64,000 nucleotides of DNA. Source: Kribbella amoyensis. Its GTDB lineage: Bacteria > Actinomycetota > Actinomycetes > Propionibacteriales > Kribbellaceae. Under the pieces are notes generated by a model. The model was not told the origin of the DNA. It searched no databases and saw nothing but the letters and a program-made list of their open reading frames with translations. Where the stretch lies: contig NZ_VIVK01000001.1 of the NCBI RefSeq assembly GCF_007828865.1, forward strand, positions 1,054,001-1,118,000. The letters are read 5' to 3'. Below are positions 1 through 11,863 of this stretch, piece by piece. The translations under genes were made by a program, and so were the position numbers. How positions within the stretch are numbered: position 1 is the first letter of the stretch; each line of letters starts with the position of its first letter.

Positions 1-255
1 CTTCGGCAGGTCGGTGCGCAGGTCCGCGTCCGGCGCCAGCACGGTCCGGTACGACCCGGCGTCGGTGACGTCGAGCAGCGGGACCGGCCGGGGATTGCGC
101 TGGCCGAACAGCAGCATGTCGTACGCCCAGTCGCGCGGCAGGACCACCAGGTTCGCCTGGGTGAATCCGGGGGCGTGGCCGGTGGACGGCACGACCAGCC
201 CGTCCCGGTACCGGCTGCGGGCCGCGGTCGGCGTGGCGGTGTCGGCAGGGGTCAT
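1..255 (-). CDS. YcsI-type putative hydro-lyase (DUF1445 / D-glutamate cyclase family), N-terminal part
   Basis: The first 85 residues are present; the gene runs off the left edge. Blocks such as [21 protein letters not shown] and [19 protein letters not shown] are typical of the DUF1445 family, whose vertebrate members include a D-glutamate cyclase (D-glutamate to 5-oxo-D-proline) and whose Bacillus member is YcsI. The ATG at 255 is preceded by a GAGGAG ribosome site lying over the stop of the flavin oxidoreductase, so the two are probably co-transcribed. The 5-oxoprolinase genes just across the divergent promoter support a role in 5-oxoproline/D-glutamate metabolism. The family assignment is good; the exact reaction is inferred. 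Confidence 0.8.
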
Positions 256-265
256 GCGGCGCTCC

Positions 266-1279
266 TCAGGCTCCGGCGGTGGACAGGCCGGCCGCACGCA
301 GGGCCGGTCCGATGGTGCTGCCGAACGCGTCCACCTCGGCGCGCGGCAGCTCGTACGTGGTGTCCCAGCTGTGCGCCGGGAACAGGAAGACCCGGGTCGT
401 CCCGAGCTCCTCGTGCGCTCGCAGCAGCCGGTCGGCGCACTGCTCGGGCGTACCGAACAACCCGTACGCGTCCAGGATCCGATCGGTCAGGTCGTCGGAC
501 AGCTCCTCCGGCGGACCGTCCGGGACGTCGATCCCGGCGTACCGCAGCCAGGTGAGGTTGGACGCGCTCGGGTACCGCAGCCAGGGCTGGCCCGGGCGGA
601 ACCAGCCGCGCGGCCAGGCCCGGACCGTCGCGGTGTCCCCCAGCCCGAACGGGACGATCAGGATCTCCTCCAGTTCGGCGGGATCCCGGCCGGCTCGTTC
701 GGCCCCGATCCGGACGTGCTTGCGGGCCGCCTCGACCCCCGCCGGATCCAGACCGACCAGCATCATCACGCCGTCGGCGACCTCACCCGCGAGCTCCAGC
801 AATTTGGGGCCAGAGGCAAGTACCACGACGCGGGACCCGGTCGCGGGCCGGTGGAACAACTCCAGCTCGTGCCCGTCCAGGCTCGCGTGGCCCTCGCCGA
901 GCAGCCCGCGCAATGCGAGCACGATCTCGCGGAGCCGGGCTCGTCTGGCTTGGGGTTCCCCGGCCTTCTCGACCGACAGGAATCCGGGGGCGACGGTGAG
1001 CATCGCGCGTCCCGGCGCGAGCTCGTCCAGCGAGTTCGCGAGGGCGGCCGAGACGAGCGGATGCCGGGTCACCACGTTCGAGGTCGCGGGGAACAGCGAC
1101 AGCCGCTCGGTCCGCGACGCCATCGCGGCGAGCACGAGGTACGCGTCCCGCCCGGTGTGGTGGTGATCCGGGACACCGATCCCGTCCAGCCCGGCCGCCT
1201 CGGCCCGGGCGGCGAACTCGGCCAGCTCCGGCAACGGCCGCCCGACCGGTACCCGCAGATCGACCCGCAGCCCGCTCAT
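266..1279 (-). CDS. LLM-class flavin-dependent oxidoreductase
   Basis: A 337-residue luciferase-like monooxygenase of the F420/FMN type. The N-terminal beta strand and the region [23 protein letters not shown] followed by [17 protein letters not shown] are characteristic of the family, as is a late segment describing the TIM-barrel C terminus ([18 protein letters not shown]). The substrate cannot be read from sequence. It lies between the GntR regulator and the YcsI gene on one strand with short spacers (27 and 10 bp), so it is probably part of the 5-oxoproline operon, perhaps acting on a related lactam or imino acid. That role is inference. Confidence 0.85.
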
Positions 1280-1306
1280 CGGCCGACCCCCAGCCGGGAC
1301 GACGGA

Positions 1307-2056
1307 TCAGCCGCGGGCGCGGAAGGCGGCGAGCAAGCGGGCCTCGGAGTCGAGCATGTACTGGTGGAGCTCGTCCGCGGCGCGCTCGCACTCCCCCGCT
1401 TCGAGCAGTTCGAGCAGGGCCTGGTTGCGCGCGATGTACGGCTCGTGCAGGGCTTGCGGGGTCGCGATGACGTGGAACAGCAGCCGGAGCTCGGCGAGCA
1501 GGCGGCCGATGATCTCGTCGATCCTGGTGCTGCCGGCGAGACCGACCAGGTGCCGGTGGAAGCGCATGTTCGCCGTACCGACGGCGATCCAGTCACCGGA
1601 CCCGGCCGCCGCTCGGCTCGCCTCCAGATCGGCGCGGAGTGGATCCAGCCGATCCGGCTCGAGATCGGTGAGCCCGCGGACCACGTCGCATTCGAGGACG
1701 CGGCGCAGCCGGTAGAGGTCGACCAGGTCGTCCTCGGTGAGGTCGGGAACGAAGACGCCGCGGTGCATCCGGTGCACCAGCAGTCCTTCGTGGGTGAGCA
1801 ACCGGAAGGCCTCGCGGAGGGTGTTCCGGCTGACCTGGAGCGCTTCCTTGAGGAGTTCCTCCGACAGCTGAGTCCCTGGTCGGAGCTGTCCCTCGGTGAT
1901 CCGGCGGCGCAGTACGTCGGCCACCCGCTCGGCCGAACTGCTCCGGTCGAAGAGCGCGGCGTCGTCGGCGACGGCCCGCAGCCAGGACGTGTCGGTGCCC
2001 GGGACGGCCGGTGGTCGGATCTCGCTGGAGCTGGACACCCTCGCATCATCACCCAA
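1307..2056 (-). CDS. GntR/FadR-family (FCD) transcriptional regulator
   Basis: A 249-residue regulator. The winged helix-turn-helix spans about residues 45-110 (RVADVLRRRITEGQLRPGTQL, then VSRNTLREAFRLLTHEGLLVHR), followed by an alpha-helical FCD ligand domain with the expected DLYRLRRVLECDVVRGL entry helix. It is transcribed away from the pyroglutamyl-peptidase-like gene and is first in the operon with the flavin oxidoreductase and YcsI gene. A near-perfect palindrome in the divergent promoter is its likely operator. The inducer is probably 5-oxoproline or a related acid (inference). The ATG at 2056 was chosen because it leaves a conventional leader before the wHTH. Confidence 0.88.
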   Translation of the reverse strand: MGDDARVSSSSEIRPPAVPGTDTSWLRAVADDAALFDRSSSAERVADVLRRRITEGQLRPGTQLSEELLKEALQVSRNTLREAFRLLTHEGLLVHRMHRGVFVPDLTEDDLVDLYRLRRVLECDVVRGLTDLEPDRLDPLRADLEASRAAAGSGDWIAVGTANMRFHRHLVGLAGSTRIDEIIGRLLAELRLLFHVIATPQALHEPYIARNQALLELLEAGECERAADELHQYMLDSEARLLAAFRARG

Positions 2057-2093
2057 TCGCTGTGCCGGAGTGAAACCGCGTTGGATGGGAGTC

Positions 2094-2122
2094 TTGCAGG
2101 ATTGTTGAACAATATCTACCCT
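2094..2122 (+). promoter_or_regulatory. Promoter with embedded GntR-type operator
   Basis: TTGCAG (2094-2099) and TACCCT (2117-2122) are separated by 17 bp and fit a housekeeping sigma promoter reading toward the pxp operon. Inside the spacer lies ATTGTTGAACAAT (2101-2113), six-base arms around one central base, with the AT-rich inverted form used by FCD-GntR repressors. Its location predicts repression by steric block and autoregulation of the divergent regulator. Promoter elements and palindrome are read directly; the protein that binds is inferred. Confidence 0.6.
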
Positions 2123-2187
2123 CGGGAATCACGAGACGCGTTCGACCGCCCACTGAACGCATCGCCTGACCCCTTGGGAGATCCCGG

Positions 2188-3531
2188 ATGATCCACCAGA
2201 GGCTTTTCCCGTCCGCGCTGCTCGCCCTCAACGTCGTCACGGTGGCAGCCCTGGCCAGTACCGGAGGCGGCAGCCCGATGGCCCCATCCTCGACCGCGGC
2301 CGCGCCCTCGTCCGCCTGCGTCGCCCCCGGCACCGTGCTCACGGTCGAGGAGCAGCGGACCACGCTGAGCCTGCCGGGCCGGACCACCCCGGTCGCCCGG
2401 GACTTCATCGAGGCCGCCGGATTCGAGCGGATCGTGGACGACTTCGCCGCCCGGCTCTGCGGTTACACGAGCGTCGGCGAGGCCAGTACCGCCATCAAGG
2501 CCGCCGGCGCCGCACTCTGGCGGACCGCGGTCGACCGGGCACAGGGCCGGCTGACCTCCGGCACCATCGACCGGTACGACGACCGCCCGCTGTACTGGGC
2601 GCGGACGTCGATGAGCCGCGCGGTCCGGGAGTGGCAGGCGCCGTTCGCGCTGACCAGCCTGCAGCGACAGGCGATCCTGCGGCAGTTCAGCTACGCCTCC
2701 CGCGGGATCGACCAGGTCGAGTTCGGAAAGAACACCACCAAGCTGCTGGTCAGCGGGTTCGACACCTACAGCCTGGACGCCAGCCTGCGGAACTCGAACC
2801 CGTCCGGCGCCTCCGCGCTCCAACTCGACGGCCGCACCGTCAAGACCAAGCACGGCACCGTCACCGTCCAGGCGGTGATGTTCCCGGTGAACTGGACCGA
2901 CTTCGACCAGGGCATCGTCGAGGACGCGTTCGGCCCGTGGCTGGTGCACCGCAAGGACCCGCGGTACCAGGGCGCGATCGACGCGCTGATGACGATCAGC
3001 CAGACCGGTCGCGGCCAGACGAACATCGAGAAGTGGGCCGGCGGGTTCCGCGGCGGCTCGCCGGACAACAACCGATCGATCAACTACGGCCCGATCTCGG
3101 CCGCCGCGCTCTGGCCGCAACCGCAGCCGTCGCCGCAGTTCATCCACACCACGCTGCCGTACCAGGCGATGATCGCCGCCGGCACCGGGCCGTGGCCGGT
3201 CAAGCTCAACCCGGGCATCACCGAGTGGCCGGCCGGCACCTTCCCCGACCCGACCGCGCTGCGGACCGCACCCGACCCGTCGCCGGGCTCCCGCGCGGCC
3301 AGTGCGCCGGGCGGCAACTACCTGTCCAACGAGTCCATGTACCGCACCAACCGGCTCCGGCTCGGCACCGGTCACCCGACCCTGCCGGGCGGGCACCTGC
3401 ACATCTCCGCCCTGGAGTACCCGGCCGACCCGGGCGCGCTCACCAGTCCCGCGTTCGAGGCGGACCGCCAGGCCGTCGTGGATCAGACCGTCGCCCTCGT
3501 CGAGGCCGCCGGTAAGGCCGTCCGGCGCTGA
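2188..3531 (+). CDS. Secreted pyroglutamyl-peptidase-like (C15-like) protein, catalytic Cys replaced
   Basis: A 447-residue protein with an N-terminal signal segment (residues 1-24) and a helical region before a peptidase C15-like domain from about residue 185. Core C15 features are visible: LLVSGFDTYSLD with NPSG and a following LDG, a segment with Glu281 that aligns with the catalytic glutamate, GNYLSNESMY (375-384) at the site that is normally TYVCNH, and GHLHISALE with His405 at the catalytic histidine site. The nucleophile position is therefore Ser380, and the protein has no cysteine after Cys91. Ordinary C15 enzymes are cytoplasmic and about 215 residues. It opens the pxp operon, so release of 5-oxoproline from peptides outside the cell is the likely role. 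Activity is uncertain. Confidence 0.7.
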   Translation: MIHQRLFPSALLALNVVTVAALASTGGGSPMAPSSTAAAPSSACVAPGTVLTVEEQRTTLSLPGRTTPVARDFIEAAGFERIVDDFAARLCGYTSVGEASTAIKAAGAALWRTAVDRAQGRLTSGTIDRYDDRPLYWARTSMSRAVREWQAPFALTSLQRQAILRQFSYASRGIDQVEFGKNTTKLLVSGFDTYSLDASLRNSNPSGASALQLDGRTVKTKHGTVTVQAVMFPVNWTDFDQGIVEDAFGPWLVHRKDPRYQGAIDALMTISQTGRGQTNIEKWAGGFRGGSPDNNRSINYGPISAAALWPQPQPSPQFIHTTLPYQAMIAAGTGPWPVKLNPGITEWPAGTFPDPTALRTAPDPSPGSRAASAPGGNYLSNESMYRTNRLRLGTGHPTLPGGHLHISALEYPADPGALTSPAFEADRQAVVDQTVALVEAAGKAVRR

Positions 3532-3581
3532 CGCCGCGGTCCCTGCGCACCCCTCACCGCCAGCGGAAACAGGAGAGCACC

Positions 3582-4859
3582 ATGGCCAAGCCGCCGTCCA
3601 AACCGACCAGCCCCCGCCCCGTCCGCCGGACCGGACAGCCCAGCTCGGAGGGCACGGCCACCACCTCGATGAAGGCCAGTACCCGGTCGACGCTGATCGG
3701 GGCGATGTTCCTGATGGCCACCTCGGCCATCGGGCCCGGCTTCATCACCCAGACCACGACGTTCACGGTGCAGCTCGGCGCCGCGTTCGCCTTCGCCATC
3801 GCCGCGTCGATCCTGGTCGACATCGCCCTCCAGCTGAACGTCTGGCGGGTGATCGGGGTGTCCGGCCGGCGGGCTCAGGAACTCGGCAACCTGGTCGCTC
3901 CCGGTCTCGGCTGGGTGATGGCCGGGCTACTGTTCGTCGGCGGCCTGGTCTTCAACATCGGCAACGTGTCCGGCTCCGGGCTCGGCACCGACGCGATGCT
4001 CGGCCTGGACCCGAAGCTGGGTGGCGCACTGTCGGCGTTGATTGCCATCGGCATCTTCTTGTCCAAGCGGGCCGGGCTGGCGGTGGACCGGATCGTCTTC
4101 GTGCTCGGCGCGCTGATGATCGTGCTCACCACCTACATCGCGATCACCTCCGGACCACCCGTCGGCCAGGCCCTGAAGAACGTGGTGCTGCCCGAGCAGG
4201 TCAGCTTCCTGGCCATCACCACGCTGATCGGCGGCACCATCGGCGGGTACATCGTGTACGCCGGGGCGCACCGGCTGCTCGACTCCGGGGTGAGCGGGCC
4301 GGAGCATCTCAAGGACATCACCCGCGGTTCGGTCACCGGCATCCTGATCACCGGCGTGATGCGGGTCGTGCTGTTCCTGGCGATCTTCGGCGTCGTCGCC
4401 GGGGGCGCCAAGCTGGACCCGGCGAACCCGGCCGCGTCCGCGTTCGAGCAGGCCGCCGGCGAGGTCGGGCTGCGGGTCTTCGGCATCGTGCTGTGGGCCG
4501 CGGCGATCACCAGCGTCATCGGCGCCTCGTACACCACGGTCTCGTTCATCACCTCGCGGACGCGGACCAGCGACCGGGTCCGGACCGGCCTGGTGGTCGC
4601 CTTCATCGTCGTGACCACGCTGCTCTTCCTGGTGATCGGGACCGCGCCGACCACGCTGCTGGTGTTCGCCGGCGCGTTCAACGGGCTGCTGCTGCCGGTG
4701 GGGATCGGTGTGCTTCTCTGGGTGGCATGGCGGCGCAAGGACCTGCTGAACGGCTACCACTACCCGGCCTGGCTGCTCGGGATCGGCGGGCTGGCCTGGC
4801 TGCTGACCATCTACCTGGCGGTGCGCTCGGTCCGTCCCGTCATCGACCTGTTCGGCTGA
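3582..4859 (+). CDS. NRAMP-family (YcsG-type) membrane transporter
   Basis: A 425-residue protein with about 11 hydrophobic segments. The start of the core, GAMFLMATSAIGPGFITQTTTF, is the NRAMP-family first helix (usually GPG), but the metal-binding DPGN signature is absent, as in the YcsG branch. YcsG genes sit with ycsF, ycsI and kipIA in Bacillus, the same partners as here. It starts 50 bp after the secreted protein, with an AGGAGAG ribosome site, and is followed 24 bp later by pxpA. Import of 5-oxoproline or a similar acid rather than a divalent metal is likely, by context only. Confidence 0.8.
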   Translation: MAKPPSKPTSPRPVRRTGQPSSEGTATTSMKASTRSTLIGAMFLMATSAIGPGFITQTTTFTVQLGAAFAFAIAASILVDIALQLNVWRVIGVSGRRAQELGNLVAPGLGWVMAGLLFVGGLVFNIGNVSGSGLGTDAMLGLDPKLGGALSALIAIGIFLSKRAGLAVDRIVFVLGALMIVLTTYIAITSGPPVGQALKNVVLPEQVSFLAITTLIGGTIGGYIVYAGAHRLLDSGVSGPEHLKDITRGSVTGILITGVMRVVLFLAIFGVVAGGAKLDPANPAASAFEQAAGEVGLRVFGIVLWAAAITSVIGASYTTVSFITSRTRTSDRVRTGLVVAFIVVTTLLFLVIGTAPTTLLVFAGAFNGLLLPVGIGVLLWVAWRRKDLLNGYHYPAWLLGIGGLAWLLTIYLAVRSVRPVIDLFG

Positions 4860-4883
4860 CCGGCCGCTGAAGGAGGAGATCCG

Positions 4884-5645
4884 ATGAACACCGTCGATCT
4901 GAACGCCGACCTCGGTGAGGGCTTCGGCAGCTGGAAGATGGGCGACGACAACGCCTTGCTCGACGTGGTGACCAGCGCCAACGTGGCCTGCGGCTTCCAC
5001 GCCGGCGACCCGTCGATCATGCGCGCGGTCTGCCGTCGCGCCGCCGATCGGGACGTGGCGATCGGGGCCCACGTCGGGTACAACGACAAGCCCGGATTCG
5101 GCCGCCGGTTCGTCGACGTCGAGCCGGCCGTCCTGCGCGACGAGGTGCTGTACCAGATCGCCGCGCTGGACGCGTTCGCCCGGATCGCGGGGTCCGAGGT
5201 CCGCTACGTCAAGCCGCACGGCGCGCTGTACAACACGATCGGCAGCCACGAGGACCAGGCCGCGGCCGTGGTCGCGGCGGTCGCCGACTACGACCGCGCG
5301 CTGCCGGTGCTCGGGTTGCCGGGTGCGTTGTGGCTCAAGCTGGCCGAGGAGGCCGGGCTGACCGTGGTACACGAGGCGTTCGCCGACCGCGCGTACACCC
5401 CGGAGGGCACGCTGGTCTCCCGGCGGGTCGAGGGATCCGTCCTGCACGACGGGCGCGAGATCGCCAAGCGCTGTGTGGCGATGGCGACCGGCAGCGCGAT
5501 CAAGGACGTGGAGGGTGGCGAGCTGAAGCTGCACCCCGGGTCGATCTGCGTACACGGGGACACCCCGGGCGCGGTCCAGATCGCCCAACAGGTCCGCAAG
5601 TCGCTCGGGGACGCGGGTGTCGAGCTGACCCCGTTCGCGGCCTGA
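4884..5645 (+). CDS. pxpA: 5-oxoprolinase subunit PxpA (LamB/YcsF family)
   Basis: A 253-residue protein of usual length for the family. It begins with the family signature VDLNADLGEGFG, followed by SANVACGFHAGDP, GAHVGYNDKPGFGRR and the YVKPHGALYNT block, then HPGSICVHGDTPGAV near the C terminus. PxpA, PxpB and PxpC together form the prokaryotic ATP-dependent 5-oxoprolinase that opens 5-oxo-L-proline to glutamate. A strong AGGAGGAG site lies just upstream of the ATG. Its stop overlaps the start of pxpB in a TGATG arrangement, indicating translational coupling. Confidence 0.95.
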   Translation: MNTVDLNADLGEGFGSWKMGDDNALLDVVTSANVACGFHAGDPSIMRAVCRRAADRDVAIGAHVGYNDKPGFGRRFVDVEPAVLRDEVLYQIAALDAFARIAGSEVRYVKPHGALYNTIGSHEDQAAAVVAAVADYDRALPVLGLPGALWLKLAEEAGLTVVHEAFADRAYTPEGTLVSRRVEGSVLHDGREIAKRCVAMATGSAIKDVEGGELKLHPGSICVHGDTPGAVQIAQQVRKSLGDAGVELTPFAA

Positions 5646-6259
5646 TGCGCCTGCTGCCCTGCGGCGGTACCGCGCTGCTGGTGGAGCTCGCCGATCTCGA
5701 CGAGGTCCTCGGGTACTACGCGGCGCTGCTCGCCGAGCCGCCGGCCGGTGTCGTCGACATCGTGCCGGCGGCCCGGACGGTGATGGTGGTGACCGACCCG
5801 GCCGTCACCGACCTCGCCGCGCTCGAACGCTCCCTGCGCGCGACGGTGCCGACCGCCGATCGCCGGGCCGCCGGCGACCTGGTCGAGATCCCGGTCGTGT
5901 ACGACGGCGCGGACCTCGACGACCTGGCCGGGATCCTCGGCTGCGACGTCGCCGAGGTGGTCCGCCGGCACACCGCCGACGAGTGGACGGTGGCGTTCTG
6001 CGGCTTCGCGCCGGGCTTCGGATATCTCACCGGCCGCTCGGACTGGAACATCCCGCGCCGCGAGTCGCCGCGGACGAAGGTGCCCGCCGGTTCGGTCGCG
6101 CTCGCGGGCGAGTTCAGCGGGGTGTACCCGCGCGAGTCGCCCGGCGGCTGGCAGCTGCTCGGCCGGACCGACGTGGCCGTCTTCGACCTCGACCGCGATC
6201 CCGCGGCCCTGCTGCAACCCGGCCGGCGAATTCGCTTCGTGGATGCGGGTCGAGCGTGA
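5645..6259 (+). CDS. pxpB: 5-oxoprolinase subunit PxpB (KipI-like)
   Basis: A 204-residue protein starting at the ATG within the TGATG junction with pxpA. The family block FCGFAPGFGYLTG lies at about residues 118-130, with PRRESPRTKVPAGSVALAG and the GVYPRESPGGW motif following; these are the allophanate-hydrolase-subunit-1 signatures of KipI/PxpB. It forms a complex with PxpC. The stop overlaps the GTG of pxpC, so the three subunits are translationally coupled, consistent with fixed stoichiometry. Confidence 0.94.
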   Translation: MRLLPCGGTALLVELADLDEVLGYYAALLAEPPAGVVDIVPAARTVMVVTDPAVTDLAALERSLRATVPTADRRAAGDLVEIPVVYDGADLDDLAGILGCDVAEVVRRHTADEWTVAFCGFAPGFGYLTGRSDWNIPRRESPRTKVPAGSVALAGEFSGVYPRESPGGWQLLGRTDVAVFDLDRDPAALLQPGRRIRFVDAGRA

Positions 6260-7095
6260 CGGTGCGCTGCGAAGTACTGGAGACCGGTCCGCTGACGACC
6301 GTGCAGGACACCGGCCGGACCGGCCAGGCCGCGTTGGGCATCGGCCGATCCGGGGCCTGCGACCGGACCGCGTACCGGCTGGCCAACCGGCTCGTCGGCA
6401 ACAGCGAGGACGCGGCCGCGTTGGAGGTGACCTTCGGCGGCCTCGCACTGCTCGCCGAGGCGGACCTCGTGTACGCGATCACCGGCGCCCCCTGTTCCGG
6501 CGTACCACTGAACGCACCCGCGATCCTCCGCAAGGGCGAGGTCCTACGTCTCGGCGTACCGCGGACCGGCCTGCGCACGTACGTGGCGATCCGCGGCGGC
6601 GTGGACGTGGAACCGGTGCTCGGTTCCCGTTCGACCGACCTGCTGGCCGGGCTCGGTCCCGCTCCGCTGAAGGCCGGCGATGTGGTTGCTGCTGGTAAGG
6701 ACCACGGTCCGATGCCAGGCGTCGACCTGGCGCCCGTCGCCGAACCGGCCGGCGGACTGGTGACGGTACGCCTCCTGCCTGGTCCCCGGCGCGACTGGTT
6801 CACGGATGCGGGCTGGGCCTCGTTGCTCGGCCAGACGTACAAGGTCAGCAGCAACAGCAACCGCATCGGGGTACGCCTCGAAGGTGAGCCCCTGGAAAGA
6901 GCCCGCAACGGCGAACTCCCCAGCGAAGGCATGGAACTGGGCGCCCTCCAAATCCCCCCATCCGGCCTCCCCGTCCTCTTCCTGGCCGACCACCCAGTCA
7001 CCGGCGGCTACCCCGTCATCGCGTACGTAGCCCCCGAAAACCTAGACCCCTGCGCCCAACTCCGCCCCGGCCAACCCCTCCGCTTCACCCCCTGA
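6256..7095 (+). CDS. pxpC: 5-oxoprolinase subunit PxpC (KipA-like)
   Basis: A 279-residue protein of the biotin-dependent carboxyltransferase/allophanate-hydrolase-2 family. The N terminus LETGPLTTVQDTGRTGQAALGIGRSGACD is the family signature; SNSNRIGVRLEG, LPSEGMELGALQIPPSG and the final HPVTGGYPVIAYV block are also present. The GTG at 6256 overlaps the pxpB stop and gives the expected N terminus; a second GTG at 6262 is possible. It is the last gene of the operon; non-coding repeats follow directly. Confidence 0.94.
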   Translation: MTVRCEVLETGPLTTVQDTGRTGQAALGIGRSGACDRTAYRLANRLVGNSEDAAALEVTFGGLALLAEADLVYAITGAPCSGVPLNAPAILRKGEVLRLGVPRTGLRTYVAIRGGVDVEPVLGSRSTDLLAGLGPAPLKAGDVVAAGKDHGPMPGVDLAPVAEPAGGLVTVRLLPGPRRDWFTDAGWASLLGQTYKVSSNSNRIGVRLEGEPLERARNGELPSEGMELGALQIPPSGLPVLFLADHPVTGGYPVIAYVAPENLDPCAQLRPGQPLRFTP

Positions 7096-7309
7096 GGCCG
7101 TAACCCCGCACCACCCCACCACCTGCCCCGCCCCCATCGCCCACTCACCAACCCAACCCAAGCACCCGCCCCAGCCGAGCACCCCACCGCTCGCCCGCCC
7201 AGCACCCCACCACTCGCCCCACCCAGCACCCGCCCCTGCACCCCGCCGCTCGCCCCTCCCCAGCACCCCCCCGCTCGCCCCGCCTCATTACCCACCCCTC
7301 GCCCCACCC
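7096..7309. other. C-rich low-complexity spacer after pxpC
   Basis: The plus strand is almost entirely C/A with runs such as CACCCCACC and irregular repeats of CGCCCAGCACCCC. No reading frame has a plausible protein. It leads into the first composite repeat. It may act as a transcription end region, but no clear hairpin terminator is visible. Confidence 0.5.
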
Positions 7310-7677
7310 CACTTTGTGCACCCACCAGCCACCGCCCGTCGCACTTTGTGCACCAACCGGTCGCCACAGCCGGCGCAGTATGACCAACCCGCACACAAAG
7401 TCGGCTCGACTGCGGGCCGGCGGTGGTGGCCGGGGGCGGTGGGCCTAGGCCTGGTGGCCAGGGGCCGGGTGGCCAGGGGCCGGGTGGCCAGGGGCCGCGG
7501 GCCGGAGGGCCGGCGCGGCGATGGCGGAGCGGCGGTGGCGGGGCGGCGGTGGCGGGGCGGACGCGGTGGGCGGGCTCGCCGGTGAGGTAGTCGGCTAGCG
7601 GGTTGTTGGACGCTTGGCGGGTTGTTTGACCGATGGAGTGTTGTAGCAGGGGTGGTGATCACAAAGGGCGCCATCAG
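7310..7677 (+). repeat. Composite intergenic repeat, copy 1
   Basis: The order is: two direct CACTTTGTGCACC modules (from 7310 and 7345) ending in the inverted CGCACACAAAGTCG; a G-rich stretch with three 15-bp units GTGGCCAGGGGCCGG (7454-7498); three 19-bp units ending TTGTTG/TTGTTT/TTGTAG (about 7592-7646); and a tail AGCAGGGGTGGTGATCA to GCGCCATCAG. The same order recurs in copy 2. Open frames here are low-complexity and not conserved between copies, so I call it non-coding. Confidence 0.75.
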
Positions 7678-7738
7678 AGAACCAACCCACGCCCCGCCAG
7701 CCGCAGCCACGACGTGCCGCCCGCCAACCACCCGCACC

Positions 7739-8167
7739 CACTTCGTGCACCCACCACCCACCCGCACCCACTTCGTGCACCCACCAGCCACCGCCCGTCG
7801 CACTTTGTGCACCCACCGGTCACCACGGACGCCGCGACACGACCAATCCGCGCACAAAGTCGCGACCTCGGGACGGCGACAGCGGCGGGGCGGCGGCGGG
7901 GCGTGTGTCTCGGCGGGACGGCGGTGGTCGCGGGGCGGACGTGGCAGCGAGCTCCGTGGGTTAGGCGTGCCGCTGCCGGCAGTTGGGTGGCCGCCGGGTC
8001 GTTGGGTGGCCGCCAAGGTGTCGGACAACTGGCGGGTTGTTGGACGACTGGCGGGTTGTTGGACGGCCGCTGGGTCGTTCGACGACTGGCGGGCTGTCAG
8101 GTGGTTGGCGGGTTGTTTGGCCGATGGCGTGTTGTAGCGGGGGTAGTGGTCAAACTGAGCGTCATCG
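7739..8167 (+). repeat. Composite intergenic repeat, copy 2, with 19-bp tandem array
   Basis: It repeats the layout of copy 1. GTGCACC modules start at 7739, 7769 (30-bp period) and about 7801, and end in CGCGCACAAAGTCG near 7863. A G-rich segment follows, then about eight 19-bp units (7986-8137), best represented by GACGACTGGCGGGTTGTTG, and the tail CGATGGCGTGTTGTAG to GCGTCATCGG. The tail aligns with copy 1 almost base for base, showing segmental duplication with later expansion of the array. Confidence 0.75.
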
Positions 8168-8199
8168 GGCACGCGTACCGGCGGGAACCTGCGGATGGG

Positions 8200-9201
8200 T
8201 CAGAGGATGAAGCCGGTGGGGAAGGGGTCGGTGGGGTCGAGGAGGTAGTTGGCCATGCCGGTGATCCAGGCTCGGCCTGTGACGGTCGGGATGACGGCTG
8301 GGCGGTCGCCGACCTGGGTTTCCTCCAGGAGGCGGCCGATGAAGCGGGTGCCGATGAAGGACTCGTTCACGTAGTCCTTCAGGAGTTCGAGCTCACCACG
8401 CGCGTGCAGCTGCGCCATCCGCGCGCACGTCCCGGTACCGCACGGGGAACGGTCGAACCAGCCGGGGTGGATCGCCATCGCGTTGCGCGAGTCCGACCCG
8501 TCCCGGCCGGGTGCCGTGAACTGGACGTGCTTGCAGCCGTTGATGCCCGGGTCCAGCGGGTGGACCGGGCGGTCGGTCGCGTTGATCGCGTCCATGATGT
8601 CCAGCCCGGCCTGCAGGATGCGTTCCTTCTCGGCCCGGTCGAACGGGATGCCGAGCTGGTCCAGCGGCAGGATCGCGTAGAAGTTCCCGCCGTACGCCAG
8701 GTCGTAGGTGACCTCGCCGAGTCCCTTCACCTCGACGGTGGTGTCCAGCGCGTGTGAGTACGCCGGCACGTTCTGGATCGTCACGTGCTCGGCCTTGCCG
8801 TTGCTCACCGCAACCTTCGCGACGACCAGGCCGGCCGGGGTGTCCAGCCGGACCTCGGTGACCGGCTCGGTCACCTTCACCATGCCGGACTCGACCAGGA
8901 CCGTGGCCACGCCGATGGTGCCGTGGCCGCACATCGGCAGGCAGCCGGACACCTCGATGTAGAGCACGCCCCAGTCCGCGTCCGGCCGGGTCGGCGGCTG
9001 CAGGATCGCGCCGCTCATCGCCGAGTGGCCGCGCGGCTCGTTCATCAGGAACAGCCGCAGGTCGTCGTCGTGCGCCAGGAAGTACTCCCGGCGCTCGGCC
9101 ATCGTCGCGCCCGGGATCACGCCGACGCCACCGGTGACCACGCGGGTCGGCATGCCCTCGGTGTGCGAGTCGATCGCGGTCAGGGTGCGGACGGATCTCA
9201 T
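8200..9201 (-). CDS. Proline racemase-family epimerase (probable 4-hydroxyproline 2-epimerase)
   Basis: A 333-residue protein. Both catalytic cysteines are present: Cys91 in MCGHGTIG and Cys254 in DRSPCGTGTCA. Two cysteines fit racemase/epimerase activity rather than trans-3-hydroxyproline dehydratase, which has Thr at the second site. The early motif IDSHTEGMPTRVV is also family-typical. It is last in the hydroxyproline operon; its ATG overlaps the stop of the DapA-type gene by 4 bp. It would convert trans-4-hydroxy-L-proline to cis-4-hydroxy-D-proline. The start at 9201 was chosen over an upstream extension because of this overlap. Confidence 0.92.
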   Translation of the reverse strand: MRSVRTLTAIDSHTEGMPTRVVTGGVGVIPGATMAERREYFLAHDDDLRLFLMNEPRGHSAMSGAILQPPTRPDADWGVLYIEVSGCLPMCGHGTIGVATVLVESGMVKVTEPVTEVRLDTPAGLVVAKVAVSNGKAEHVTIQNVPAYSHALDTTVEVKGLGEVTYDLAYGGNFYAILPLDQLGIPFDRAEKERILQAGLDIMDAINATDRPVHPLDPGINGCKHVQFTAPGRDGSDSRNAMAIHPGWFDRSPCGTGTCARMAQLHARGELELLKDYVNESFIGTRFIGRLLEETQVGDRPAVIPTVTGRAWITGMANYLLDPTDPFPTGFIL

Positions 9202-10100
9202 CGCAACGACTCCACGGCCTTCTTCATGTCCTGCTCCAGCTGGGCGAGGTGTTCCGGTACCAGTGGACCACGCGGCGGGCGGCACGGTCCCCCGAACCGG
9301 CCGACGTAGTCCATCCCGTACTTGATCGCCTGCACGAACTCGACCCGCGAGTCCCACCGGAACGCGGCCACCAGCGGCTCGTACATCGCCCGCGCCGCGT
9401 CCAGCTCGCCGGCCAGCGCGAGCTCGTACAGCCGGACCGACTCCTTCGGGAAGACGTTCGGGAACCCGGCGAACCAGCCGGTCGCCCCCATCAGCAGCGC
9501 CTCCAGGGTGAGGTCGTCGGCGCCCGCGATCACGGCCAGGTCCGGGGCCTGCTCGCGGATCTCCAGGATCCGCCGGACGTCACCGGTGAACTCCTTCACC
9601 GCGACCACGTTCTCGATCTGGGCCAGCTCGGCGAGCAGGTCCGGGGTCAGGTCGACCTTGGTGTCGTGCGGGTTGTTGTAGACCATCACCGGCAGCCCGG
9701 CCTTGGCGACCTCGGTGTAGTGGTGGATCACCTCGCCGCGGTTCGCGCGGTACATCGTCGGCGGCAGGCACAGTACCCCGTCGGCGCCGTCCTCGGCCGC
9801 CTTCTCGGCCCAGCTCCGGGCCTGGTGCGCGCCGGCGCCGTGGACGCCGACCACCACGACACCGTCGTCGCCGACCGCCTCGATCGCGGTCCGGGCGACC
9901 TGCCGGCGCTCGTCGTCGGTGAGCGACGAGTACTCCCCGAGCGACCCGTTCGGGCCGACACCGCGGCAGCCGTTCTCGATCAGCCAGCGGCAGTGCTCGG
10001 CGTACTTGTCGAAGTCTGGCCGCAACCCGGCCGGCGCGGCCGCGTCCTCGGCGTAGGGCAGCGCGGTGGCGACGATGACGCCTTCCAGCTTCTCGGTCAC
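9198..10100 (-). CDS. DapA-family lyase (probable 1-pyrroline-4-hydroxy-2-carboxylate deaminase)
   Basis: A 300-residue class I aldolase-like TIM barrel. Tyr140 in VMVYNNP and the Schiff-base Lys168 in VAVKEFTGD are in place; NGSLGEYSSLTDDER is the usual loop near the N terminus. Within a hydroxyproline cluster this family carries out deamination of 1-pyrroline-4-hydroxy-2-carboxylate to 2-oxoglutarate semialdehyde. It overlaps both neighbours by 4 bp. No 2-oxoglutarate-semialdehyde dehydrogenase is in the window, so the last step must be encoded elsewhere. Confidence 0.9.
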   Translation of the reverse strand: MTEKLEGVIVATALPYAEDAAAPAGLRPDFDKYAEHCRWLIENGCRGVGPNGSLGEYSSLTDDERRQVARTAIEAVGDDGVVVVGVHGAGAHQARSWAEKAAEDGADGVLCLPPTMYRANRGEVIHHYTEVAKAGLPVMVYNNPHDTKVDLTPDLLAELAQIENVVAVKEFTGDVRRILEIREQAPDLAVIAGADDLTLEALLMGATGWFAGFPNVFPKESVRLYELALAGELDAARAMYEPLVAAFRWDSRVEFVQAIKYGMDYVGRFGGPCRPPRGPLVPEHLAQLEQDMKKAVESLR

Positions 10101-11863
10101 AGGTCCTCCTGGAGGTTGGCAAGATCAGCGAGCCGGACCGGCACGGCGATCGGACGATGGTGTTCAGCCCGTACCCCGGGCTGGTGGGCGGCCGCGAGAT
10201 CGGCCACGGTGCGGGCACAGACCCGGCCCTGGCAGAGCCCGAGCCCGGCCCGGCTGGTCAGCTTGAGCGGGCGCGACCCGGCGACGTCGCGCTCGGCGAG
10301 AGCGGACTCCAGCGCACCCCGGGTCACGCCTTCACACCGGCAGACCAAGGTGCCGTCGTCGCTCCACGACCGCCACCCGTCCCGGACCGGATAGGCCCGA
10401 GCCAGCGCAGCCGCAAACCGCTTGCCCTCGACAACCTTCCGCCGAGCCGTCGTCGGGGGCACGGAGCTATCGGTTCGTACTGCGTGGGCCGCGGCCTGGC
10501 CGGCGACGCGACCTTCGGCAGCGGCCAGGTCGGCACCACCGATGCCGGTGAGTTCGCCGGCGGCCCAGACCGCGGGGTCGCTGGTCCGCTGGGAGTCGTC
10601 GACCACGACCGCCGGTCCACCGTCGGGCCCGGTACCGAGCTCGCAGCGGGCCGAGACGGCGAGTTCGAGCTGAGCGGTGAAGCCGTAGCCGATGCAGACC
10701 GCGTCCACCTCGACCTGCCGCTCGGTCCCGGGAATCGGCCGCCAGTCCGGAGTCAGCCGCGCGACGGTCACCGCCTCGACCCGGTCCGTACCGTGCGCGG
10801 CGATCACCGCCCGCCCGTGCTGCAACCGAAGCCGGTGCCGCGCCAGCAGCCCGGCGTACCCGGCCGCCTCGCGAAGCTTGCTGCGGGCAACCAGCGGATC
10901 GGTCCGCCAGCCCTGCGCGATCGTGCTCAGGTGGTTCGCCTCGAGCAGTCCGGCGACCTCGGCCCCGACGCCCAGCAAGGACTCGGCGACCGGCAACAGG
11001 AACGGCCCCGTCCCGCCGACCAGGACGCGTTGCCCGATCGCGATCCGCTGCCCCTTCGCCAACGCCTGCGCGGCCCCGGCGCTGTACACCCCGGGCAGAT
11101 CCCAACCAGGGAACGGCAACACCCGGTCGTACGCCCCGGGCGCGAGCACGAGCGCCTCCGCCTCGACAGACGACATCCGCCGCCCTGGCGCGTCCGCGGC
11201 CCCCGTCTGCAGCCACAGGCGCCGCCCGGTCCGTCCCGTCAGCGGCTCGATCGCCCACACCGAGGTCTCGGCCAGGTACTCGATCCGCTCGTGCCGCGCG
11301 ATCCGATCCCGCACCCGCGCGAAGGAGGTCCACCCGTGGTGCACCCGACCAGGACGCCGCGCGTTGAACTCCGCGGGCAACTGCCGGTGGTACTGCCCGC
11401 CGACGGCCCGCCCGGCGTCGACCAGCAGCACGTCGACCCCCGCGTCGGCCGCCGCCAACGCCGCGTTCATCCCTGCGGGTCCCGCGCCCACAACGACGAC
11501 GCTCCACTGGCTCCGTGGTGCCGCGGCCGTGCTGCCGTTGACCGCAGCAGGGAGTACCGCGCCGTGTTGGGTGGAGATGCTGTCGCCCGGCGCGATCGTG
11601 CGCTGGCAGGCGCGGACATCCGGTACCCCGTTGACGACGACCAGGCAGTCGAAGCAGGCGCCGATCCCGCAGAAGACGCCGCGCGGTTTCGCCTCGGCAC
11701 CACGCGTGGTCCGCCACGAATCACGCCCGGCCGCCATCAACGCGGCCGCGACCGTCTGGCCAGGCAACGCCTGCACGGGTTGTCCATCAACGCTGATCTG
11801 CATGGACGCCTGGGGACGCGGCTCGGCCGGGTCACCGCCGGCCGGCTGGAGGTACGGGCTCAC
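10097..11863 (-). CDS. Fused ferredoxin / FAD-NAD(P) oxidoreductase / BFD subunit of D-hydroxyproline dehydrogenase-like complex
   Basis: A 588-residue fusion. Residues about 20-110 carry a [2Fe-2S] ferredoxin motif (CGIGACFDC and a later Cys in VRACQRTI). A pyridine-nucleotide disulfide-type flavoprotein follows from VVVVGAGPAGMNAALAA. The C terminus is a BFD-like domain with cysteines in LVCRCEG and LCQGRVC. In other bacteria HcnA-like and HcnB-like parts are often separate subunits beside a DAO-type HcnC-like subunit; here the first two are one chain. The GTG at 11863 overlaps the upstream stop (GTGA). An internal ATG at about 11803 is a possible alternative. Confidence 0.88.
   Translation of the reverse strand: MSPYLQPAGGDPAEPRPQASMQISVDGQPVQALPGQTVAAALMAAGRDSWRTTRGAEAKPRGVFCGIGACFDCLVVVNGVPDVRACQRTIAPGDSISTQHGAVLPAAVNGSTAAAPRSQWSVVVVGAGPAGMNAALAAADAGVDVLLVDAGRAVGGQYHRQLPAEFNARRPGRVHHGWTSFARVRDRIARHERIEYLAETSVWAIEPLTGRTGRRLWLQTGAADAPGRRMSSVEAEALVLAPGAYDRVLPFPGWDLPGVYSAGAAQALAKGQRIAIGQRVLVGGTGPFLLPVAESLLGVGAEVAGLLEANHLSTIAQGWRTDPLVARSKLREAAGYAGLLARHRLRLQHGRAVIAAHGTDRVEAVTVARLTPDWRPIPGTERQVEVDAVCIGYGFTAQLELAVSARCELGTGPDGGPAVVVDDSQRTSDPAVWAAGELTGIGGADLAAAEGRVAGQAAAHAVRTDSSVPPTTARRKVVEGKRFAAALARAYPVRDGWRSWSDDGTLVCRCEGVTRGALESALAERDVAGSRPLKLTSRAGLGLCQGRVCARTVADLAAAHQPGVRAEHHRPIAVPVRLADLANLQEDL

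Follow-up and report, generated by a model that had tools for sequence, protein, structure and literature searches.

A putative secreted serine-type relative of C15 pyroglutamyl peptidases heads a PxpR-type 5-oxoproline operon in Kribbella amoyensis

Introduction

Growth of Corynebacterium glutamicum on 5-oxoproline depends, according to the available part of a 2026 report, on pxpT and pxpABC, both of which are essential for it, and was abolished by a pxpT deletion that was complemented from a plasmid (PMC13274462). The same source describes PxpR, a divergently encoded GntR-type repressor of pxpT/pxpABC that acts via agattgttcaacaatct, a site for which RegPrecise is cited, and that binds 5-oxoproline with a dissociation constant of 726 nM (PMC13274462). 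Here we describe a related locus at the left end of a 64-kb stretch of the 8.12-Mb genome of Kribbella amoyensis (the window; its position 1 is G000:C1:1054001), in which the operon begins with a gene for a predicted secreted protein that has the fold of C15 pyroglutamyl peptidases and a serine where those enzymes have their catalytic cysteine. C15 is a textbook cysteine peptidase family.

In Bacillus subtilis the corresponding gene order is presumably pxpA-ycsG-ycsI-pxpBC. That operon and the window have PxpABC, YcsG and YcsI in common, but the operon as described in the available part of PMC10448178 has no secreted C15-fold protein and is under other regulators. With the C. glutamicum system the window shares the divergent GntR regulator, the operator core, the type of carrier and the three hydrolase subunits; relative to the available description of that system (PMC13274462), it adds a secreted C15-fold gene between the operator and pxpT, and genes for a luciferase-like (LLM) oxidoreductase and for YcsI behind pxpR. 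We propose that the locus is probably a PxpR-controlled operon for scavenging 5-oxoproline with an extracellular front end, a secreted serine-type pyroglutamyl peptidase.

Results

By gene order and strand, window positions 1307-2056 and 3582-7095 correspond to pxpR<>pxpTABC. The PxpR homologue, an FCD-GntR repressor, is encoded on the minus strand (1307-2056, TTG start as listed), divergent as in the available description of C. glutamicum (PMC13274462). On the plus strand follow the gene for the secreted protein, the first of the operon (2188-3531), pxpT (3582-4859), pxpA (4884-5645; Pfam E 1.1e-98), pxpB (5645-6259; E 1.1e-61) and pxpC (about 6256-7095; E 6.7e-84), the last three forming one predicted operon by gene order and strand. 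An initial annotation, made from the letters of the window, had called this region a 5-oxoproline island; every gene that it named was found in place, and the match to the C. glutamicum gene set bears the designation out.

ATTGTTGAACAAT, a palindrome at 2101-2113 (no strand assigned), lies in the 131-bp gap that separates the GntR gene from the secreted gene and is the predicted PxpR operator. Its core, ATTGTTNAACAAT, which thus lies between the divergent GntR-type gene and the operon, is identical to the C. glutamicum site. With up to two mismatches allowed, the operator pattern has a single match in the 64 kb against 0.02 expected, and the copy at 2101-2113 is the sole exact one in the genome. 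A scan of 39 genomes (our own, 24 others of the genus and 14 of the order) found 31 exact sites in 25 of them, namely in 24 of 25 genus genomes and in 1 of the 14 others; a reversed control pattern was present in 1 of the 39. Inspection of all 31 exact sites placed 25 in the interval between pxpR and the pxp operon and six just upstream of ycsI elsewhere in the genome. Nine further genus loci, picked by their PxpT or YcsI matches and not by the operator, all carried the site as well (eight at pxpR, one at an unlinked ycsI). The shared divergent promoter and the role of the GntR protein as regulator of the island, both suggested in the initial annotation, are backed by the operator within the gap and, for the regulator, by its recurrence across the pxp loci of the genus. 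A sigma-70-type promoter scan of positions 1900-2300, with a model that does not cover this organism, gave no match.

The secreted protein has 447 residues, with a signal-like N-terminus and an additional domain, and so is not of the compact C15 type of about 200 to 220 residues. A signal peptide and linker (residues 1-44, positions 2188-2319; residues 1-33 are of low confidence in the AlphaFold2 model) precede a helical N-terminal domain of about 140 residues (residues 44-182, positions 2317-2733) carrying the motif DDRxLYWAR, in which D131-D132-R133, W137 and R139 are invariant, and a C15-fold domain (residues about 183-447, positions 2734-3528). Secretion was predicted by a crude hydrophobicity test at an allowed start codon. 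The window protein passes this test, as do 73 of 83 family members overall (9 of the 92 collected had no start codon), and the same crude rule applied to PxpA, PxpB, PxpC and GntR proteins from the same loci was passed by 6 of 77.

Taken alone, the window protein falls under the PF01470 cut-off (12.9 versus 22.7 bits, E 0.11), and a direct search of Protein Data Bank sequences with it gave no match. The same database searched with an eight-row profile, alignment A1, whose first row is the window copy, gave seven weak matches (E 0.13-0.56), pyrrolidone-carboxylate peptidase being only the weakest. All eight members of A1 match PF01470 at E <=1 (best 2.3e-6), a family member on the Enterobacter plasmid pOXA436 scores 33.7 bits against it, and a profile-profile comparison of 47 family sequences with six canonical C15 proteins gave a probability of 95.5 and E 1.3e-8. 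The AlphaFold2 model (predicted local distance difference test, pLDDT, 90.5) returned 16 Foldseek matches at E <=0.001, every one a C15 entry, and in VIA-align the top 23 rows were all C15 (Z 16.8-20.5; next row 10.2), with a likeness that spans about 200 residues. The description of the protein as C15-like in the initial annotation therefore stands on the profile-profile E value and on Z scores of up to 20.5, despite the Pfam score; neither the exchange of the catalytic cysteine for serine nor the operator figures in that annotation. A search against viral structures found no match at E <=0.001, and the N-terminal helical domain searched alone with Foldseek against the Protein Data Bank gave a best E of 1.1 and none <=0.001.

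We take the catalytic triad of C15, in the numbering of 1aug, to be Glu81, Cys144 and His168, and Phe10, Phe13, Asn19 and Gln71 to be residues of its pyroglutamate pocket. In an ungapped alignment the Glu, Cys and His positions correspond to E281, S380 and H405 of the window protein. Compared with pyroglutamyl peptidase I (1aug, 5z48), the window protein thus has in common the fold and the positions of the catalytic Glu and His, and it matches the presumed pocket positions F10, F13, N19 and Q71; its family differs in having serine for cysteine, a signal peptide, the N-terminal domain of about 140 residues and an extra invariant histidine, H403. These positions were followed through 92 proteins: the window protein, 11 paralogues from the genus and 80 proteins from a collection scan (one of them, L094, from the sister strain G006), the 80 being those among 583 that resemble A1 most closely. 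The scan patterns, DDR[GP]LYWA and PV[RN][YW]TDFD, both lie outside the nucleophile, so that members with cysteine would not be missed on that ground.

The position of the catalytic cysteine is occupied by serine in all 92. E281, S380, N381, E382, H403 and H405 are invariant throughout the set, as are W111, D131, D132, R133, W137 and R139 in the N-terminal domain, and the positions that match the presumed pocket residues are likewise kept (F191, F/Y194 and N204 in 92/92, Q272 in 90/92). Because E281, S380 and H405 are invariant in every protein, 80 of them found by patterns independent of the nucleophile, the site appears to be maintained by selection and not to be in decay. The serine at the nucleophile position is kept in relatives from Actinomycetota, Bacillota, Pseudomonadota and Bacteroidota, and eight relatives were found on plasmids, six of which were inspected; all six (Streptomyces, Tsukamurella, Burkholderia, Comamonadaceae, Enterobacter and Tenacibaculum) have the motif YLSNE, the Tenacibaculum protein with Asp in place of the catalytic Glu. 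Canonical C15 was not found in 25 relatives searched (16 of the genus, our own included). Among 119 genomes of the phylum, PF01470 found a match in 8, and the one in G145 belongs to the serine-type family; a search with alignment A2 matched 8 of 396 genomes, our own included, a count that is no frequency, as the genomes are scattered over many small lineages.

Since the defining cysteine was tested for and is absent, the secreted protein is not classable as a C15 cysteine peptidase; judged from its sequence, it may well work like a C15 peptidase. In our view the protein is a novel form of the C15 kind, and the operon adds a member to a system that is already known. The label "pyroglutamyl peptidase" already stands at NCBI on two plasmid members of the Streptomyces group, where the serine is not remarked on, and no serine variant of pyroglutamyl peptidase was found among the literature matches listed, which cover few subscription journals.

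The loss of the cysteine nucleophile would also suit a protein that has given up peptidase activity and now serves as an extracellular 5-oxoproline- or pyroglutamyl-peptide-binding protein feeding PxpT, and both the place of the gene directly before the carrier gene and the conservation of the pocket positions fit such a role. Yet Glu281 and His405, which are catalytic and not obviously binding residues, are as invariant as the serine (92/92), and SNE is kept in all six plasmid relatives inspected, proteobacterial and Bacteroidota proteins among them. We consider a binding protein rather unlikely, though of the alternatives it survives best.

Two of the plasmid relatives have neighbors of a different kind. 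Within a type VI secretion cluster, the Tenacibaculum gene (L195:5278-7062) comes immediately after a gene of the baseplate/spike type, and polymorphic toxins are reported to include pyroglutamyl-peptidase domains (PMC3482391, available part). The second is a "hypothetical protein" gene beside blaOXA-436 on pOXA436 (L194:5866-7023); its product belongs to the serine-type family, with 29% identity over 83% and with YLSNE and DDRSLYWAR kept, and, unlike the window copy, it has no 5-oxoproline genes in the surrounding 13-kb stretch. A "peptidase C15" gene is described beside blaOXA-48-like genes of Shewanella in a report whose available part does not remark on the serine (PMC3480492); from the shared neighbors we infer that it is the same gene as the pOXA436 member.

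The association of the secreted gene with pxp genes was surveyed in the 80 collection loci, linkage being a match to pxpA, B, C or T of at least 60 bits within flanks of up to 9 kb. Linked loci numbered 35, unlinked 42 and undecided (contig ends) 3. The sample favors linkage, because the 80 were taken from 583 as those most similar to an alignment led by a pxp-linked query. The linked loci belong to 14 genera of Actinomycetota and Bacillota: Lentzea (11), Fictibacillus (7), Umezawaea (3), Kineococcus, Streptoalloteichus and Saccharothrix (2 each), and Kribbella, Desertihabitans, Pseudokineococcus, Blastococcus, Friedmanniella, Halosaccharopolyspora, Nocardia and a Renibacterium metagenome-assembled genome (MAG) with one each. 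Five more loci (Longimycelium and four of Saccharothrix) have only a PxpR-type GntR gene nearby. At 100 bits, PxpA is found in 29 and GntR in 27 of the same loci, against 8, 3, 2, 1, 1, 1, 1 and 37 times 0 for 44 other genes of the window, a weak control because many of the 44 may lack homologues in those genera.

Gene orders around the secreted gene differ, with at least six arrangements. The gene precedes pxpT-A-B-C, follows pxpC, comes immediately behind pxpA, follows a gene for an MctP-type symporter where pxpA is on the opposite strand, stands ahead of a convergent GntR gene that has pxpA-B-C behind it, is divergent from pxpA-B-C (Renibacterium MAG) or lies a few kb from ycsI-pxpT (Fictibacillus). 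Where it follows directly behind pxpA in Saccharothrix, the frames are 7 bp apart, with about 76 bp to the likely start. On a rough FastTree phylogeny, linkage switches at least 10 times. A PxpR-type operator with zero to two mismatches lies within 450 bp upstream in Saccharothrix (two loci, neither with pxp genes nearby), Streptoalloteichus (two), Kineococcus (one) and the Renibacterium MAG (one). Operator-like matches occur near the secreted gene in 11 of the 80 loci, of which seven were counted as sites, against 20 of 2411 random segments. The functional tie between secreted protein and pxp genes that the initial annotation suggested is thus supported by the 35 linked loci in 14 genera.

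The unlinked branches and the member beside a beta-lactamase gene, which show no 5-oxoproline context, would fit a C15-fold serine hydrolase with another substrate, such as 5-oxoproline itself, pyroglutamyl esters or amides, or lactam compounds, and the N-terminal domain, with its invariant DDRxLYWAR and no Foldseek match, could reshape the pocket. An ATP-independent 5-oxoprolinase of Alcaligenes faecalis bears a signal peptide, according to the available part of PMC13274462. Against such a substrate stand the thermodynamically unfavorable hydrolysis of free 5-oxoproline (equilibrium constant about 0.035, as quoted in the available part of PMC13274462), the presence of PxpT and PxpABC, which already handle 5-oxoproline inside, and the conservation of the C15 pocket positions, the pocket role being presumed. 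This alternative, too, strikes us as unlikely.

The product of pxpT (PF01566, E 1.4e-21) is a predicted NRAMP-like 5-oxoproline carrier of the PxpT/YcsG type. Metal carriers of the NRAMP family have the metal-ligand motifs DPGN in transmembrane segment 1 and MPH in segment 6. In all 32 aligned PxpT rows, Fictibacillus included and the window and G006 counted twice each, these places are taken by GPGxxxQTxxFT and (A/S)GAHRL, in accord with the initial annotation, which had noted that the NRAMP-type protein of the window lacks the metal motif. Its further suggestion that this protein is the 5-oxoproline carrier agrees with the growth evidence for the homologue PxpT (PMC13274462), though Mn2+ import by B. 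subtilis YcsG is argued in PMC10448178, and the available part of PMC13274462 leaves the Mn2+ question open. A search of PxpT against the Protein Data Bank gave no match at E <=0.001.

If PxpT/YcsG were a Mn2+ importer that supplies the pathway with its metal, the rise in cell Mn on induction of ycsG and the fact that an mntH mntA ycsG triple mutant could be obtained only with ectopic ycsG (both in the available part of PMC10448178) would be explained; but the loss of growth on 5-oxoproline upon deletion of pxpT in C. glutamicum, reversed by complementation (PMC13274462, available part), and the lack of the metal-ligand motifs in 32/32 rows make this quite improbable.

Full-length PxpT occurs in 17 of the 38 genomes of our genus survey, always adjoining pxpA, and in two of these 17 it has one internal stop. 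Of the 21 without full-length PxpT, 15 pxp loci were inspected; in all of them pxpA directly follows the operator with no pxpT there, and therefore another importer must serve those genomes. A candidate alternative 5-oxoproline importer is an MctP-type symporter (for example L133:7139-8956 and L136:5278-7229; the two that were scanned score 757 bits against NCBIfam MctP), the gene for which is present in 23 of the 92 secreted-gene loci: in Lentzea, one "Nocardia", Umezawaea, Saccharothrix and two Kutzneria, the last without pxp genes. PxpT was not seen in the MctP-bearing loci, and in the one locus scanned for it MctP has a DUF3311 partner. A gene for a Septum_form lipoprotein, a conceivable partner, lies behind the secreted gene in 21 of the 92 loci, all of them MctP-bearing, including the two Kutzneria loci without pxp genes.

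Behind pxpR, on the minus strand, lie the LLM gene (266-1279; flavin/F420 oxidoreductase, PF00296 E 8.6e-49) and the part of ycsI that encodes the N-terminal portion of a YcsI/DUF1445 protein (1-255; PF07286, "D-Glu_cyclase", E 1.5e-68); the complete ycsI gene, G000:C1:1053473-1054255, encodes 261 residues and extends left of the window. PF07286 is the one family for which YcsI scores above cut-off. The genus survey found 17 full-length copies of ycsI and remnants in three genomes; ten of the full-length copies are behind pxpR on its strand and seven stand alone, with the operator about 30 to 45 bp upstream. With 17 of 17 full-length genus copies under or beside PxpR, YcsI/DUF1445 is, by this sequence criterion, a member of the PxpR regulon, and because the unlinked ycsI genes carry the PxpR operator, DUF1445 is tied to 5-oxoproline metabolism beyond mere neighborhood. 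The role in handling the D-isomer given to the DUF1445 protein in the initial annotation derives from the Pfam name of PF07286, "D-glutamate cyclase," as for the mammalian enzyme. The mammalian two-domain D-glutamate cyclase is active, and its authors, in the available part of the report, relate DUF4392, the other domain, to a racemase (PMC5339696). No tested function for bacterial DUF1445 was found among the literature matches listed, in which few subscription journals are covered.

The LLM monooxygenase had been counted as part of the set; as a conserved member of it we reject it: an orthologue is present in 2 of 38 genus genomes (G000 and G006) and in 1 of 80 collection loci, that of the sister strain. 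The LLM gene is probably an incidental addition.

Facing pxpC at 8200-11800 is a hydroxyproline-type catabolic cluster with genes for a 4-hydroxyproline epimerase family protein, an enzyme of the dihydrodipicolinate synthase family and a Fer2/FAD oxidase subunit; of the 32 genus pxp loci fetched, 26 include the epimerase-family gene. Immediately beyond the left edge of the window, and in the orientation of pxpR, is a gene for an Xaa-Pro aminopeptidase (M24, AMP_N; L027:6038-7459), a second peptidase adjoining imino-acid genes, with homologues of 84 to 94% identity in 31 of the 32 fetched genus pxp loci, our own included. The intergenic region 7096-8199 contains a duplicated 114-nucleotide block (7290-7403 and 7749-7862, 84% alike) with ACTTTGTGCAC elements, and 19-nucleotide repeat units at about 7595-7640 and 8010-8130.

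Discussion

Our findings make it reasonably probable that the Kribbella locus is a scavenging operon with an extracellular front end. In the model that we propose, the secreted protein would cut N-terminal pyroglutamate from peptides outside the cell, Ser380 acting as the nucleophile with Glu281 and His405 in a C15 triad that has serine for cysteine, an exchange that would suit an oxidizing environment. The released 5-oxoproline would be imported by PxpT and converted to glutamate by the ATP-dependent 5-oxoprolinase PxpABC, and internal 5-oxoproline would release PxpR, so that peptidase, carrier and hydrolase would be induced jointly. YcsI/DUF1445 would be a further enzyme of the PxpR regulon, probably acting on 5-oxoproline or its D-form.

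Several observations weigh against this proposal. Exchange of cysteine for serine in a cysteine peptidase usually abolishes activity, and no demonstrated activity of any member of the serine-type family was found in the literature matches listed. Within the genus survey, a pxp-linked secreted copy of full length with a signal peptide is present in 3 of 38 genomes (G000, G006 and G445); the copy in G437 starts with MMLTVEEQ and has no signal peptide, which disfavors a strictly extracellular role there, and that in G436 is a remnant. In the collection, 42 of the 80 relatives are unlinked and 3 undecided, and the 80 were picked from 583 for their similarity to A1, headed by the pxp-linked window copy, a choice that favors linkage; four of the 11 operator-like matches (L107, L109, L116 and L117; three Fictibacillus and one Bacillota MAG) are AT-rich and probably due to chance; and in two Kutzneria loci the secreted gene stands beside MctP and Septum_form genes, as in Lentzea, with no pxp gene. 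The SNE[IV] branch, made up of the Kribbella paralogues and the Streptomyces type, is pxp-linked in 0 of 27 cases, and because this branch is never linked, the family as a whole is not definable by 5-oxoproline.

The initial annotation had made conservation beside pxpABC in relatives the test of its reading, with a mixed outcome. Within the genus the secreted gene comes close to failing (three copies with a signal peptide, one without and one remnant in 38 genomes) and the YcsG-type gene adjoins pxp in no more than 17 of 38; what saves the secreted gene is the broader survey of the collection loci. The genus pattern at the pxp locus looks like loss or transfer and not like a genus-wide trait. 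Decaying or shortened copies were seen of pxpT in G009 and G021, of the secreted gene in G436 and G437, and of ycsI in G020, G436 and G441, and such single-genome decay points to ongoing loss of parts of the pathway. A paralogue of the secreted protein, with 38 to 41% identity, is present in 35 of the 38 genomes; that of G000 (38%) is at G000:C1:5601062-5602345 (L028), and the 11 paralogue loci inspected had no pxp gene or exact operator within the roughly 19 kb fetched.

That the operon is an ordinary one, the island being pxpR-pxpTABC with neighbors and the secreted gene there by chance, would agree with its scarcity in 38 genus genomes (three full-length copies, one without a signal peptide and one remnant) and with the LLM gene as proof that additions occur at the locus, but it is very improbable given pxp linkage in 14 genera of two phyla with rearranged gene order and a PxpR-type operator within 450 bp upstream in Saccharothrix, Streptoalloteichus, Kineococcus and the Renibacterium MAG.

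A broader formulation is more tentative, and we hold it with less than even confidence: that the secreted proteins are serine-type pyroglutamyl peptidases forming a large family, which arose from the C15 cysteine peptidases through a fixed Cys-to-Ser exchange and the gain of the N-terminal domain, that this family serves as the inducible front end of the PxpR/5-oxoproline regulon in several lineages and has other uses elsewhere, and that DUF1445 is the D-5-oxoproline enzyme of this regulon. The serine branch represents either a natural Cys-to-Ser switch in a peptidase or a highly conserved non-peptidase. If the proposed scavenging operon is real, it would fill a gap in 5-oxoproline metabolism by providing a source of the environmental 5-oxoproline that PxpT and PxpABC consume.

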